Source of the DNA: Nitrospinota bacterium
GTDB lineage: Bacteria > Tectomicrobia > Entotheonellia > J063
Assembly: GCA_003696125.1 (NCBI GenBank)
Contig: RFHZ01000123.1
Location: forward strand, 1 to 7,736
DNA: 7,736 bases
Direction: 5' to 3'
Shown here: positions 3,525-7,736 of the stretch, piece by piece
How the letters are laid out: each line of letters opens with the position of its first letter
How positions within the stretch are numbered: the stretch's first letter is position 1
Translations under genes and position numbers: made by a program
The notes under the pieces: model-generated
The model's database searches: none
What the model saw: the letters and a program-made list of their open reading frames with translations, nothing else
What the model was told of the DNA's origin: nothing

Positions 3525-4307
3525 TTAAATCATCAGAGAGGTGATGAAGTAATCCCATACCAGGATCAATACCGAAGAGAGCACCACCGCTTCGGTGGTC
3601 GCTCTCCCCACTCCTTCTGCCCCATGTCCGGCGTAGAACCCTTTGTAGCAGCAGACCCAGCTCACAATCCCTCCAAAGCTTAACGCTTTGATGACCCCGG
3701 TAGAGATGTCTTTGAGGACGACATCGTATTCCATGCTGGAAAAGTAGGCTCCCGGATTGGCTCCCAGCAGTTTTACCCCTACCAGGTACCCGCCGTAAAT
3801 TCCGACCACATCAAAAAGCCCGGTTAAGAGGGGCACGGCGATGATCGCGGCTAAGAGGCGGGGAGAGGCCAGGTACTTGATCGGGTTGACCGCCATGACC
3901 TCTAGGGCATCGATCTGCTCTGAGATACGCATGGCCCCGATTTCGGCCGCCATGGCCGATCCTGCCCGGGCCGTCACCATCAGGGCGGCCAGGACCGGAC
4001 CCAGCTCCCGGATGAGACTGAGGGCGACCAGTGAACCGAGTACACTCTCAGAGCCAAACTTGCGAAGCGTGTAGTACCCCTGTAAGCCGAGAACCATGCC
4101 GGTAAAGGCAGCGGTCAGGACGATGATGGAAAGGGATTTGGTGCCCACAAACTGGATCTGGGTAAGCAGTTGGCGAAAGCGAAAGGGCGGAGAGACGATT
4201 CCCCAAAGGGTGGCCAGGAGAAAGATCGCCATGCGTCCCATTTCGGCAAGACACTTCAACACCTGGTTGCCGATATAAGTCAGGAAGGTGAAGAGAAACG
4301 CTGCCAT
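3525..4307 (-). CDS. mlaE: MlaE-type ABC transporter permease
   Basis: This is the inner-membrane permease of the Mla/MCE lipid transporter; MlaE-family proteins dimerise, bind MlaF from the cytoplasm and carry the MCE ring above. The 260-aa length is standard. It opens with an amphipathic region (AFLFTFLTYIGNQVLKCL), followed by several hydrophobic segments. The family hallmark is ALSLIRELGPVLAALMVTAR then AGSAMAAEIGAMRISEQIDAL (EQIDAL at 130-135), the cytoplasmic coupling segment that contacts the ATPase. The 'ALEVMAVNPIKYLASPRLLA' stretch is equally characteristic. ATG 4307 has GGGGGAAG a few bases upstream. It is the first recognised transporter gene of the operon, 30 bp after the preceding small unknown gene. 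Confidence 0.96.
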   Translation of the reverse strand: MAAFLFTFLTYIGNQVLKCLAEMGRMAIFLLATLWGIVSPPFRFRQLLTQIQFVGTKSLSIIVLTAAFTGMVLGLQGYYTLRKFGSESVLGSLVALSLIRELGPVLAALMVTARAGSAMAAEIGAMRISEQIDALEVMAVNPIKYLASPRLLAAIIAVPLLTGLFDVVGIYGGYLVGVKLLGANPGAYFSSMEYDVVLKDISTGVIKALSFGGIVSWVCCYKGFYAGHGAEGVGRATTEAVVLSSVLILVWDYFITSLMI

Positions 4308-4337: not shown

Positions 4338-4676
4338 CTAGCGGCAGGAGAGTTCTCCTTGCACAACAAAGGCCTGGCCCTGGGCATCTGTCCCAAAGAG
4401 GGTCAGCCGATAGCGAAAGCGGTTGAGGGGACTCGATACCCACAGCTCGGAGAAGTTCACCTGTTCAAAGGGGGGGAGGGAGAGATCTAACCGGTTCTCG
4501 AGACGATCGAAGACCTGTCCGTCTTCGGTGATCCATTCTGCCCGATAGCGCTGTACCTGTACCCTGCTCCCCCTGGTTTCTCGTAGAGCAACACTGAAGA
4601 ACCATTTCCCCTGGTCCGCTCGATTCCGATAGGTCGGATTAGGCCAGAGGATGATATGCAGCGGAGCGTCAGACAT
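4338..4676 (-). CDS. Small conserved-looking protein of unknown function at head of mla operon
   Basis: I do not recognise this 112-aa protein. I chose ATG 4676 (MSDAPLHIILWPNPTYRN) because GGGGAG sits 8 bases upstream. The frame could extend to 4715 (125 aa), but that part lacks a ribosome site and overlaps the promoter region of the divergent gene. The sequence alternates hydrophobic and polar residues (KWFFSVALRE, VQVQRYRAEWITEDG, RFRYRLTLFGTDAQG, AFVVQGELSC), which suggests a beta-sandwich or Ig-like fold. There is no signal peptide or membrane segment, so a cytoplasmic location is likely. It ends 30 bp before mlaE and reads in the same direction, so it is probably co-transcribed. It does not look like MlaB (STAS domain) or MlaC. 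Confidence 0.75.
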   Translation of the reverse strand: MSDAPLHIILWPNPTYRNRADQGKWFFSVALRETRGSRVQVQRYRAEWITEDGQVFDRLENRLDLSLPPFEQVNFSELWVSSPLNRFRYRLTLFGTDAQGQAFVVQGELSCR

Positions 4677-4709
4677 CACGTAAACTCCCCTCTTTGCCCT
4701 TTGTTCGTC

Positions 4710-4738
4710 TTGCATCTTCCCTGCCTGTCTGCTACACT
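4710..4738 (+). promoter_or_regulatory. Probable sigma-70 promoter for the plus-strand gene at 4775
   Basis: TTGCAT (4710-4715), a 17-base spacer and TACACT (4733-4738) form a plausible -35/-10 pair (3/6 and 4/6 matches, ideal spacing). Transcription would start near 4745, giving a leader of about 30 bases that carries the GAGGAG ribosome site at 4761-4766. It sits in the 98-bp divergent gap between the mla-operon head gene and this gene. I saw no equally good promoter for the opposite direction within the gap. Confidence 0.45.
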
Positions 4739-4774
4739 GAAAACGAGAACAGTTTAGAGAGAGGAGATGAGCAT

Positions 4775-5299
4775 ATGGAAGAAGTACAACCGACCCAATG
4801 GGAGATCGATGGCTACATTGCCACTCTCACCGTGGTTACCGACGATCCGGCAGGAGGGCGGGTGCGGATGGAGATTCGGGCTCACGACTCTTCCATGCCC
4901 CCTTTTGTCCGTACCTTCTATTATGATGAGGCTACTGATCGGCATTACCGCAACTTTGCTCGCAAGTTTGCTACTGACCCGGCCTATCGTACCCAGTGCC
5001 TCAGCGGTACCGCTCCCTGGCAAGAGGTCGATTGGCGGTATCAGGAAAGGGCCATGGAGCTCTATGCCATCTTTGCCCGTAAGGACAGGCGCTTTTTACC
5101 TTCTGCCCATTTCACGCCAGAAGAACAGGCGATTCACGAGCAACTATGGGCTCAGTATCGAGCCACCCTGTACCGCATCTATCAGCGCTTAAAATCCCGT
5201 TTTAACCCTCCACCCTCCCGTCCTGCTCCGACCAAAGGTACCACGACCAGAACAGGGAAGTCTTCCTCTCGATCCACTGCACGGCGTTCGCGCTCCTAA
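4775..5299 (+). CDS. Hypothetical protein with basic Ser/Thr/Arg-rich tail
   Basis: The start is ATG 4775, 174 aa, with GAGGAG 8 bases upstream; 27 further codons before it (from 4694) overlap the promoter and are probably not translated. The N-terminal part (MEEVQPTQWEIDGYIATLTVVTDD, then RVRMEIRAHDSSMPPFVRTFYYDEATDRHY) is acidic and beta-like. The middle (residues about 50-140) is helical and rich in Tyr, Arg and Gln, for example WRYQERAMELYAIFARKD and IHEQLWAQYRATLYRIYQRL. The last 35 or so residues are Pro-, Ser-, Thr- and Arg-rich and probably disordered; the positive charge could bind nucleic acid. No signal peptide, membrane segment or known catalytic motif is visible. It is the only clear plus-strand gene here, divergent from the mla operon and convergent with the Rieske gene. 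Function unknown. Confidence 0.82.
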   Translation: MEEVQPTQWEIDGYIATLTVVTDDPAGGRVRMEIRAHDSSMPPFVRTFYYDEATDRHYRNFARKFATDPAYRTQCLSGTAPWQEVDWRYQERAMELYAIFARKDRRFLPSAHFTPEEQAIHEQLWAQYRATLYRIYQRLKSRFNPPPSRPAPTKGTTTRTGKSSSRSTARRSRS

Positions 5300-5388: not shown

Positions 5389-5937
5389 CTATATCCGCAG
5401 GATGCTTTCCGGGTACTGTTCATCCGGATCGATTCCTGGTCGCATGGTATAGACGATACTCTTATCAACCAGCAGTTTCCCTTCGGCATTCAGGGAGACC
5501 TTTACCCGGTCCAGGGGACGCGGAGCCGGTCCTTCATAGTTGGTACCGTCCATATAGAAGCCGCTCCCATGGCAGGGACACTTGAAGGCCTGCTTGTTCG
5601 GGATCCAGTTTGGTGTGCAGCCGAGATGGGTGCAGATAGCGAGAATGACGTAAATTCCATCTTCGCGGCGGATGATCCAGACGCGTTGCTCCTTTTTATA
5701 CTTCGTACTCACCTCGCCGATCAGATAATCGGATGGGCTCCCGGCCGTGAAGACCATCGGTGGCTCAAAGAGCACCCGGGGGAACATGAACCGGACAAAG
5801 GCGAGAAGAGCAGAGCCCAGGACAAAGGCGATACCTGCCCATCCCCCAAAGCTAAAGAAATCGCGGCGAGACCAGAGCATGGAATCGGCTTTTTTCTTTC
5901 TGGCTCGCTTCGTTGTCTGCGAGGCAGACGATGCCAT
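5389..5937 (-). CDS. Tat-type membrane-anchored Rieske 2Fe-2S protein
   Basis: This 182-aa Rieske protein resembles the iron-sulfur subunit of quinol:cytochrome c (bc1/b6f-type) oxidoreductases, which passes electrons from quinol to a cytochrome. ATG 5937 has AAAGGAGG 6 bases upstream. The N-terminus carries a basic stretch, a twin-arginine-like motif SRRDFF (23-28) and one hydrophobic segment (about 32-50), as in Rieske proteins that fold in the cytoplasm and are exported by Tat. The cluster-binding boxes are intact: CTHLGC (Cys102 and His104 ligands, Cys107 disulfide) and CPCHGSGF (Cys120 and His123 ligands, Cys122 disulfide). The proline loop GPAPRPLD (137-143) follows. No cytochrome b or c1 gene is next to it: the downstream neighbour is convergent and the upstream one is an AhpD-like gene. 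It may serve a complex encoded elsewhere. Confidence 0.95.
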   Translation of the reverse strand: MASSASQTTKRARKKKADSMLWSRRDFFSFGGWAGIAFVLGSALLAFVRFMFPRVLFEPPMVFTAGSPSDYLIGEVSTKYKKEQRVWIIRREDGIYVILAICTHLGCTPNWIPNKQAFKCPCHGSGFYMDGTNYEGPAPRPLDRVKVSLNAEGKLLVDKSIVYTMRPGIDPDEQYPESILRI

Positions 5938-6024: not shown

Positions 6025-6101
6025 AGTTTCCGGTGTGTCGTTCGTGGTAGCGGTACAAGAGGGGCGATCTAAACACCACTCTCCACGCAGATAGGTGGCC
6101 T

Positions 6102-6140
6102 GCCTCCTCTCCGTCTTCCCGGAGGCGGGAGAGAGGAGGC
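6102..6140 (-). terminator. Strong hairpin after the AhpD-like selenoprotein gene
   Basis: GCCTCCTCTC (6102-6111) and GAGAGGAGGC (6131-6140) form a perfect 10-bp stem around a 19-base GC-rich loop. On the minus strand the structure starts 15 bases past the TAG stop of the AhpD-like gene. It lacks a downstream T-run, so it is either a non-canonical terminator or a stabilising 3' hairpin. Its position supports 6156 as the true end of an expressed gene. Confidence 0.45.
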
Positions 6141-6155
6141 CTGCGCCAGGGCCGG

Positions 6156-6443
6156 CTAGTTACCGGCTTTTTGGGCAACCGCTGCCTGGTTGAATTCTTC
6201 GATGCCCGGGATATACTTGATCGTGCTCCACGTTGCCCGTGCAGCACCACGCATGGCATAGTACAGAGTTTCACGGAGCTCATCATCGGTGGCTCCGGCC
6301 TGCTTCGCTGCCGCGAAGCGACCGGGTACTCACGTCGTGCATCCGGCTGCCGCCATGGCGGCAAGCGCTACGAGTTGGGCGGTCTTGGGATCAAGCGCCC
6401 CTTCTCGATAGAAAAGCCCCGCAAATTCTTTCATTTCTCCCAT
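6156..6443 (-). CDS. AhpD/CMD-like selenoprotein, CxxU motif with in-frame TGA
   Basis: Reading minus-strand TGA (6332-6330) as selenocysteine gives a 95-aa protein from ATG 6443 to TAG 6158-6156. GGAGG lies 6 bases before the ATG. The sequence fits the carboxymuconolactone decarboxylase/AhpD fold: LDPKTAQLVALAAMAAAGC (17-35), T-T-Sec38, then RFAAAKQAGATDDELRETL (42-60) and a helix YYAMRGAARATWSTIKYIPG. AhpD uses a CxxC redox pair; here it is Cys35-T-T-Sec38. Counting from M. tuberculosis AhpD (Glu118, Cys130, Cys133, His137), the proton-relay Glu and His align with Gln23 and Arg42, so the chemistry may differ from AhpD. Probable role: cytoplasmic thiol/selenol redox or peroxide reduction. 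The alternative, a nonsense mutation, is disfavoured by the exact position of the TGA, intact sequence on both sides, good expression signals and the hairpin behind the TGA. Automated callers would leave a 37-aa fragment or nothing. Confidence 0.82.
6295..6332 (-). promoter_or_regulatory. Candidate bacterial SECIS element with Sec-specifying TGA
   Basis: The TGA is at 6332-6330. After a 4-base gap, 6325-6313 pairs with 6308-6295: CCGGTC then GCTTCGC on the 5' side against GCGAAGC, a bulged A (6301) and GGCCGG. That is 13 pairs, one of them a G-U wobble, closed by the loop GGCA (6312-6309). The loop begins after 17 bases from the TGA. Bacterial SECIS elements are known to lie directly downstream of the UGA inside the coding region, with the apical loop a short distance away and a G among its first loop bases; this fits. 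The structure would recruit SelB and Sec-tRNA. No SelB binding can be shown from sequence alone. Confidence 0.72.
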
Positions 6444-6502
6444 CTATTCCCTCCTTCTCTACTAAAGATTCTGGAGCAACATCCCTCAAGCATATCGTAT
6501 GT

Positions 6503-6531
6503 ATTATGCCCCACCATTTCGGTGAAGTCAA
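6503..6531 (-). promoter_or_regulatory. Strong sigma-70 promoter for the AhpD-like selenoprotein gene
   Basis: On the minus strand TTGACT (6531-6526), an exact 17-base spacer and CATAAT (6508-6503) match 5/6 in both hexamers. This is the best promoter in the window. Transcription would begin near 6496, giving a leader of about 50 bases that ends in the GGAGG ribosome site. It separates this gene from the upstream amidohydrolase and shows it has its own transcript. Confidence 0.7.
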
Positions 6532-6649: not shown

Positions 6650-7736
6650 CTAAGGAGAAGCCTTGGGGTCTGCCTGGTACACGATCTCCCCGTGTAGAAC
6701 CGTCATCTCCACCCGGATGGAGGTGATCTCTTCCTCTGGTACGCGGAAATAATCCCGGTCGATAACGATACAGTCGGCGAGCATGCCCGGCAGCAAGGCC
6801 CCTTTCTCCTTCTCCTCCCGGGTGAACCAGGCTCCACCTCGGGTATAAGCGGTCAGTGCTTCCTGCCGGGTCAGGGCCTGATCAGGGGCAATGGGGGTGT
6901 GCAGCCAGGACTTCCGGGTAACCAGGGCGTAGAGGCCGATGAAGGGATTATAGGAGACGGTACTCGCCACATCGGAACTGGCAGCCAGGGGGATGTGTGC
7001 CTCCAGGTATTTGCGAGCCGGTTTATAGTTGGCGGCCCGGCTGGCCCCAACATCGCGAAAGAGGTCGTCCCCTTCAAAGTAGATAAAAGTCGGCTGGATG
7101 ACCGCCCCCAAGGAGAACTCTCCCATCAGGGCCAGGCTCTTGGTCGTGGGGAAGTAAGCATGGATGATCTGGTGGCGGGCATCGGAGCGGGATGAGGCCT
7201 GGACGACCTGGGCCAGAGCCTCTACCGCCATGTCCTGCGCCCGATCTCCACAGCAATGGATCCCGATATCCCAGTGCAGCTCATGGGCCTGGCGGAAGTA
7301 GTGGACCAGGGAGGCGGTATCGAGCCGGTTGTAGTTGATCACCCGGCTCTCTCCACAGAAGGGCTCATACATGTAGGCGGTGCGGGAAGTGGTACCCCCG
7401 TCCAGGGCCATCTTCAACGCGCCCAACCGGAACCATTCGTTTCCCATCCCGGAGAAGAGGCCGAGCTGGGTGGCCCGCTGTTCCAGATCGGCGGCGTTTT
7501 CGGTATCGAGAAAGCCATGCCAGCTCGGCATGACATTGACACGCAGCGGGAGCTCACCTCGTTGATAGACCCGTTGAAAAGCCCGGATCTGTTCTGGGGT
7601 AAGCCCAGGCTCGATGACACTGGTGATGCCGACCTGGAGATAGGCCCTGCCGGCCGCAATGATCGCCTGCTCCATCTGGGCAGGGGTGGGGGGAGGAAGG
7701 AGGCAGCGAACCAACTGTTTGGCTGCGGCACGGAAA
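6650..7736 (-). CDS. YtcJ-like amidohydrolase (amidohydrolase family 3), N-terminus beyond right edge
   Basis: The frame is open to the right edge (361 codons in view), so the gene is cut by the window; the TTG at 7714 is internal, as codons before it (FRAAAKQL) continue the protein. Full-length YtcJ-like enzymes are around 530-560 aa, so roughly a third is missing, including the N-terminal metal-binding HxH segment. Visible family features are GITSVIEPGLTPEQIRAFQ, WFRLGALKMALDGG, the metal-site segment IGIHCCGDRAQDMAVEAL, RHQIIHAYFP, AASSDVASTVSYNPF and the C-terminal EALTAYTRGGAWFTREEKEKG-LLPGMLADCIVID, where the barrel end returns to the small beta domain. These enzymes hydrolyse amide or related bonds in a metal-dependent TIM barrel; substrates are varied and cannot be predicted. 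The HCCGD cysteine pair replaces the commoner HAxGD form. Confidence 0.93.
   Translation of the reverse strand, partial: FRAAAKQLVRCLLPPPTPAQMEQAIIAAGRAYLQVGITSVIEPGLTPEQIRAFQRVYQRGELPLRVNVMPSWHGFLDTENAADLEQRATQLGLFSGMGNEWFRLGALKMALDGGTTSRTAYMYEPFCGESRVINYNRLDTASLVHYFRQAHELHWDIGIHCCGDRAQDMAVEALAQVVQASSRSDARHQIIHAYFPTTKSLALMGEFSLGAVIQPTFIYFEGDDLFRDVGASRAANYKPARKYLEAHIPLAASSDVASTVSYNPFIGLYALVTRKSWLHTPIAPDQALTRQEALTAYTRGGAWFTREEKEKGALLPGMLADCIVIDRDYFRVPEEEITSIRVEMTVLHGEIVYQADPKASP

Follow-up and report, generated by a model that had tools for sequence, protein, structure and literature searches.

Introduction

Selenoproteins of the AhpD-like and CMD-like types, in which the active-site motif is CxxU, have been known since 2005 (PMC1088965, PMC1794560, PMC13188914), and one Methylomirabilota MAG is reported to carry 63 selenoprotein genes (PMC13188914). 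In the cysteine-based AhpD of Mycobacterium tuberculosis, the proton relay is formed by Glu118, Cys130, His132, Cys133 and His137 (PMC3141380). A computational analysis has been carried out on a DNA stretch of 7,736 nucleotides (the window), in which a gene coding for a functional AhpD-like selenoprotein had been proposed. The assignment of AhpD-like proteins to the families in which selenocysteine replaces cysteine, made in that original prediction, agrees with the publications cited above. Gene finders that take TGA as nothing but a stop split or drop a gene of this kind.

The candidate gene and its surroundings

The gene is located on the minus strand of the window, from position 6443 to 6156, and codes for an AhpD/CMD-like protein of 95 residues (ATG to TAG) with a predicted selenocysteine at residue 38 in the motif CTTU, as indicated by the frame, the PF02627 match, the homologue alignment and the orthologues. 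Positions 6156-6443 had been given correctly from the beginning, and only the strand was absent. The plus-strand reading of 6156-6443 was also considered and discarded; it contains an unrelated frame, with nothing resembling an AhpD-like protein. The minus-strand product is MGEMKEFAGLFYREGALDPKTAQLVALAAMAAAGCTTUVPGRFAAAKQAGATDDELRETLYYAMRGAARATWSTIKYIPGIEEFNQAAVAQKAGN, followed by TAG. The 95-codon frame includes a single TGA at codon 38 (6330..6332, minus strand), which lies opposite the second Cys of the CxxC motif and is read as selenocysteine from the frame and the alignments, with 57 sense codons after it. The good Shine-Dalgarno sequence that had been described corresponds to AAGGAGGG (6449..6456, minus strand), read directly 5 nt before the ATG. 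Sigma-70-like promoter matches in the region around the gene numbered two, 0.1 being expected, and the match TTGACT-17-CATAAT (6503..6531, minus strand), a match to the consensus only, suggests that the gene could have its own promoter.

On the same strand, the gene is flanked upstream by an amidohydrolase gene (7714..6650) and downstream by a gene for a Rieske protein (5937..5389), and beyond the latter this strand also encodes MlaE, MlaF, MlaD and an efflux protein of the outer membrane. Two adjacent open reading frames without Pfam or NCBIfam match, of 125 amino acids (4338-4715, minus strand) and 201 amino acids (4694-5299, plus strand), are located between the Rieske and Mla genes. A synteny analysis in relatives, with clusters that were noisy and contained spurious frames in GC-rich DNA, revealed no conserved neighbour or operon partner, and the Rfam scan of the window gave no family at threshold. 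A hairpin immediately downstream of the gene (6080-6160) was rejected, with a stability no better than that of shuffled sequences and without a T run.

Family assignment, fold and phylogeny

The Pfam model PF02627 (CMD) matched residues 9-61 of the protein with 52.6 bits, the cut-off being 23, and scored 45.8 bits in the genome scan. This match spans the TGA; the 57 codons up to the TAG had been described as family-like in the original prediction. The score for TIGR00778 (AhpD core domain) was 27.7 bits, just below the curated cut-off of 27.8, and the best NCBIfam match, NF041047 (GSU3128), reached 54 bits against an equivalog cut-off of 110. When 24 homologues are aligned, the TGA falls in an invariant Cys/Sec column, as had been anticipated for residue 38, and Cys35 is invariant too. 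The AlphaFold model obtained with this alignment has a confident helical core (pLDDT 94), and the best Foldseek matches in the PDB were RclX, TTHA0727, TM1620 and other CMD/AhpD proteins, with a probability of about 1.0 and, the chain being so short, no E-value below 0.001. The same CMD/AhpD structures were recovered by profile search with E-values down to 6e-23.

In the phylogenetic tree of 40 sequences, based on an alignment of 77 columns that leaves its finer detail unsure, all selenocysteine forms lie to the same side of a branch with support 98/93. Within this tree, the sequences with the pattern Q...CxxU...R form their own starred clade (99/96), which includes Methylomirabilota, the window genome and the same-class relative G003.

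Conservation of the in-frame TGA

The scan of GTDB genomes revealed 21 loci, 18 of them from Rokubacteria/Methylomirabilota with 75-87% identity and each with the motif CTSU, although the match of one of these (L072) starts only shortly ahead of the motif. An orthologue with at least 60% identity and exactly one TGA was present in 45 of the 95 genomes searched in the Methylomirabilota/Rokubacteria phylum (that of genome G089). Together with the PF02627 match across the TGA, these orthologues in another phylum indicate that the frame goes beyond a chance occurrence. Selenocysteine was read directly in all of the 29 best loci (L078-L106), which all have the invariant hairpin described below, and no Cys orthologue was found in the 95 genomes searched and the 29 best loci read directly. 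If TGA is treated only as a stop, the protein is likely to be truncated or missing in many annotations of Rokubacteria and Methylomirabilota MAGs.

These data bear on the reading of the gene as a pseudogene, in which a point nonsense mutation or a sequencing error would interrupt an ordinary Cys-type AhpD gene. Gene loss does occur in this group, as a decayed fragment without the 5' half is found in genome G151 (contig C205, 28400-29000), where residues 41-87 are conserved and the 5' part and the Sec codon have been lost. However, the same TGA is maintained in 45 independent genomes, and the frame is intact in the close relatives in which decay had been named as the outcome against the prediction. 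In addition, pN was 0.107 before and 0.102 after the TGA, and pS was 0.816 and 0.684, respectively; this similarity of pN and pS on both sides indicates that protein-level purifying selection acts equally on the 3' part. The codon constraint in the hairpin and the complete selenocysteine machinery of the assembly, both presented below, also argue against a pseudogene or an error, a reading refuted by conservation and considered very improbable.

Predicted SECIS hairpin

A bacterial SECIS apical hairpin, with a 7-bp stem (GCUUCGC/GCGAAGC) and a GGCA loop, is predicted from folding and alignment at 6302..6319 (minus strand), and folding extends it to a full stem-loop at 6295..6325 (minus strand) in the window genome. 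The apical hairpin begins 10 nt after the TGA and its loop 17 nt after it. The apical stem is invariant in 19 aligned sequences, so that no covariation is found in a stem that never varies; conservation in relatives does not extend to the lower stem. The constraints of the bacterial SECIS model (PMC13188914) are an apical loop of 3-9 nt with G in the first two positions, an upper stem of 4-16 bp, a spacing of 16-37 nt and a minimum free energy of -7.5 kcal/mol or lower. The hairpin of the window fits this model (loop GGCA, 7 bp, 17 nt, -24.4 kcal/mol; z = -4.1 for the minimum free energy), and so do all 21 sequences tested (the window and 20 relatives). The model alone is loose, since it is passed by 29% of synonymous shuffles and also at 13% of codon positions in other genes of the window, although only 0.6% of the shuffles fold as stably.

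The codon constraint is a stronger argument for the predicted SECIS than the fit to the model. In 17 close sequences, the stem codons R42, F43, A44, A46 and K47 are identical, while codons vary freely at A45, whose third base lies in the loop, and at P40, before the stem. Mean codon identity at synonymous sites was 0.83 in the hairpin and 0.60 elsewhere (p = 0.001).

A sister family of the CMD fold has been observed in Methylomirabilota, with the motif GNTHU, in which the first Cys is replaced by Asn and a lone selenocysteine is left (NxxU). About 40 genomes of the phylum showed a match of 42-48% identity with one TGA, the motif being read in six of them only (L121 in G089, L108 in G214, L109 in G228, L122 in G231, L123 in G186 and L124 in G217). 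This family displays a SECIS-like hairpin of the type CCUGGC-AGGU-GCCAGG after the TGA, and its scores are far below the NCBIfam selenoprotein cut-offs.

Selenocysteine machinery

The assembly that contains the window is a fragmented bin of 4.18 Mb in 990 contigs, 94.8% complete and 8% contaminated. The selA, selB, selC and selD genes, proposed as a check of the original prediction, were all found in it: tRNA-Sec (74 bits; ARAGORN confirms it and gives the anticodon TCA), SelB (386 bits), SelA (560 bits, beside SelB on contig C102, with an N-terminal piece on C184) and SelD (136 bits, contig C684, minus strand, cut by the contig end). An in-frame TGA, giving the reading CAGU, is also present in this SelD, which appears to be a selenoprotein too. 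The assembly contains another AhpD/CMD-like gene that has a TGA in frame (CAYU; L005:1300-1724, contig C657); the His after the motif is kept, and the gene is cut by the contig end.

In the Methylomirabilota/Rokubacteria phylum, SelA scored over the cut-off in 83 of 95 genomes, and it was found in 39 of the 45 genomes carrying an orthologue of the gene. Among the six remaining genomes, completeness is below 85% in four, but 95% in G204 and 100% in G231; the absence of SelA in these two, otherwise unexplained, may be an assembly gap.

A reassigned UGA, or its readthrough by an ordinary tRNA with a standard amino acid at residue 38, would at first sight look alike, with an in-frame TGA and conserved sequence after it. 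Nevertheless, the mlaF gene of the window ends in TGA, in loci L101 and L102 TGA seems to serve as internal residue as well as stop, the TGA of the gene occupies the position of a catalytic Cys, and tRNA-Sec, SelA, SelB and SelD are present, which together make this explanation extremely improbable. The gene almost certainly encodes a selenoprotein of the AhpD/CMD fold, with selenocysteine insertion predicted from sequence, and the claim of a functional selenoprotein is supported by the checks that could be computed.

Origin of the gene

The assembly is placed outside the Methylomirabilota/Rokubacteria phylum, but the protein nests among the sequences of this phylum in family f87, with a top identity of 92% over 77 columns and only 71% to the same-class relative G003. 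On the same contig, the AhpD-like protein shows as much as 87% identity to Rokubacteria, whereas MlaE (3525-4307) reaches at most 69% to that phylum, this value corresponding to Methylomirabilota family f148, and 60% to G003. Possible reasons for these mixed affinities are horizontal transfer, strong constraint, a contaminant contig or an imprecise placement. As selA is found in most genomes on both sides, these readings leave the selenoprotein verdict unchanged.

Active site and proposed function

Cys35 and Sec38 are present in the window protein, and Gln23 and Arg42 replace the equivalents of Glu118 and His137 of the M. tuberculosis AhpD proton relay. In every branch member read, Gln (Ala in L069 and L101) stands at position 23, twelve residues ahead of the first Cys, and Arg at position 42, four residues past Sec; Glu and His are kept at these positions by most Cys homologues and by the CxxU relatives L028 and L073. 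With two of the five relay residues missing, AhpD-type peroxidase activity may be absent.

According to the proposed mechanism, the UGA would be decoded as selenocysteine by SelB and tRNA-Sec under the direction of the SECIS hairpin immediately downstream, giving a 95-residue single-domain AhpD/CMD-fold oxidoreductase in which selenocysteine takes the place of the second Cys of CxxC. Cys35 and Sec38 would form a selenenyl-sulfide in turnover, and the pair could either exchange electrons with a partner or directly reduce a hydroperoxide. The selenol of selenocysteine has a low pKa, which might stand in for the Glu118/His137 proton relay of Cys-based AhpD.

A role as thiol/selenol-disulfide adaptor or weak peroxidase is somewhat favoured. 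A true selenoprotein of the CMD fold whose thiol/selenol chemistry serves a different purpose, for instance the handling of metals, arsenic or electrophiles, is the less probable yet serious alternative; it would be in line with the replacement of the Glu118 and His137 equivalents by Gln (or Ala) and Arg, and the related NCBIfam models NF041537 and NF045649 tie the AhpD domain to arsenic methylation selenoproteins. By contrast, the CxxU pair is kept throughout, which fits a redox role, and no arsenic genes adjoin the gene in the window.

A further reading is tentative and rather doubtful: a distinct branch of the AhpD/CMD fold would be exclusively selenocysteine-based and widespread in Methylomirabilota/Rokubacteria, without Cys orthologues, and selenocysteine would have made the Glu/His relay dispensable, with a different redox chemistry. 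The interest of the branch lies in the combination of selenocysteine in all intact orthologues read, the lack of any Cys version among the sequences found and the loss of the Cys-activating residues of AhpD, and it offers a clean way to test why selenocysteine does not revert to cysteine in some enzymes.

Comparison with known systems

The window protein and the NF041047 GSU3128 family (seleno)protein, termed 'distant AhpD homolog', are both small single-domain AhpD-like proteins with CxxU, but the window protein scores below the cut-off of this family, and Glu and His are retained in the CxxU relative L028 where the window branch has Gln and Arg. RclX (PDB 7Y4R), the top match among solved structures in both the profile and Foldseek searches, differs in having CxxC without selenocysteine and in keeping Glu and His in the alignment. 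M. tuberculosis AhpD (PDB 1KNC) shares the helix-turn-helix core with the CxxC active site, its second Cys being the Sec position; in the window protein, which is about half as long, selenocysteine replaces Cys133, and Gln and Arg are found for Glu118 and His137. The AhpD-like/CMD CxxU selenoproteins described from the Sargasso Sea and in later reviews show the same PF02627 domain, CxxU motif and SECIS directly downstream, whereas in the tree of 40 sequences the window branch forms its own clade, of which the published CMD-like example MBW1767730.1 may be a member. AhpD/CMD-like CxxU selenoproteins are therefore a known type, and what is distinctive here is a branch that is apparently always selenocysteine-based and has lost two standard active-site residues.
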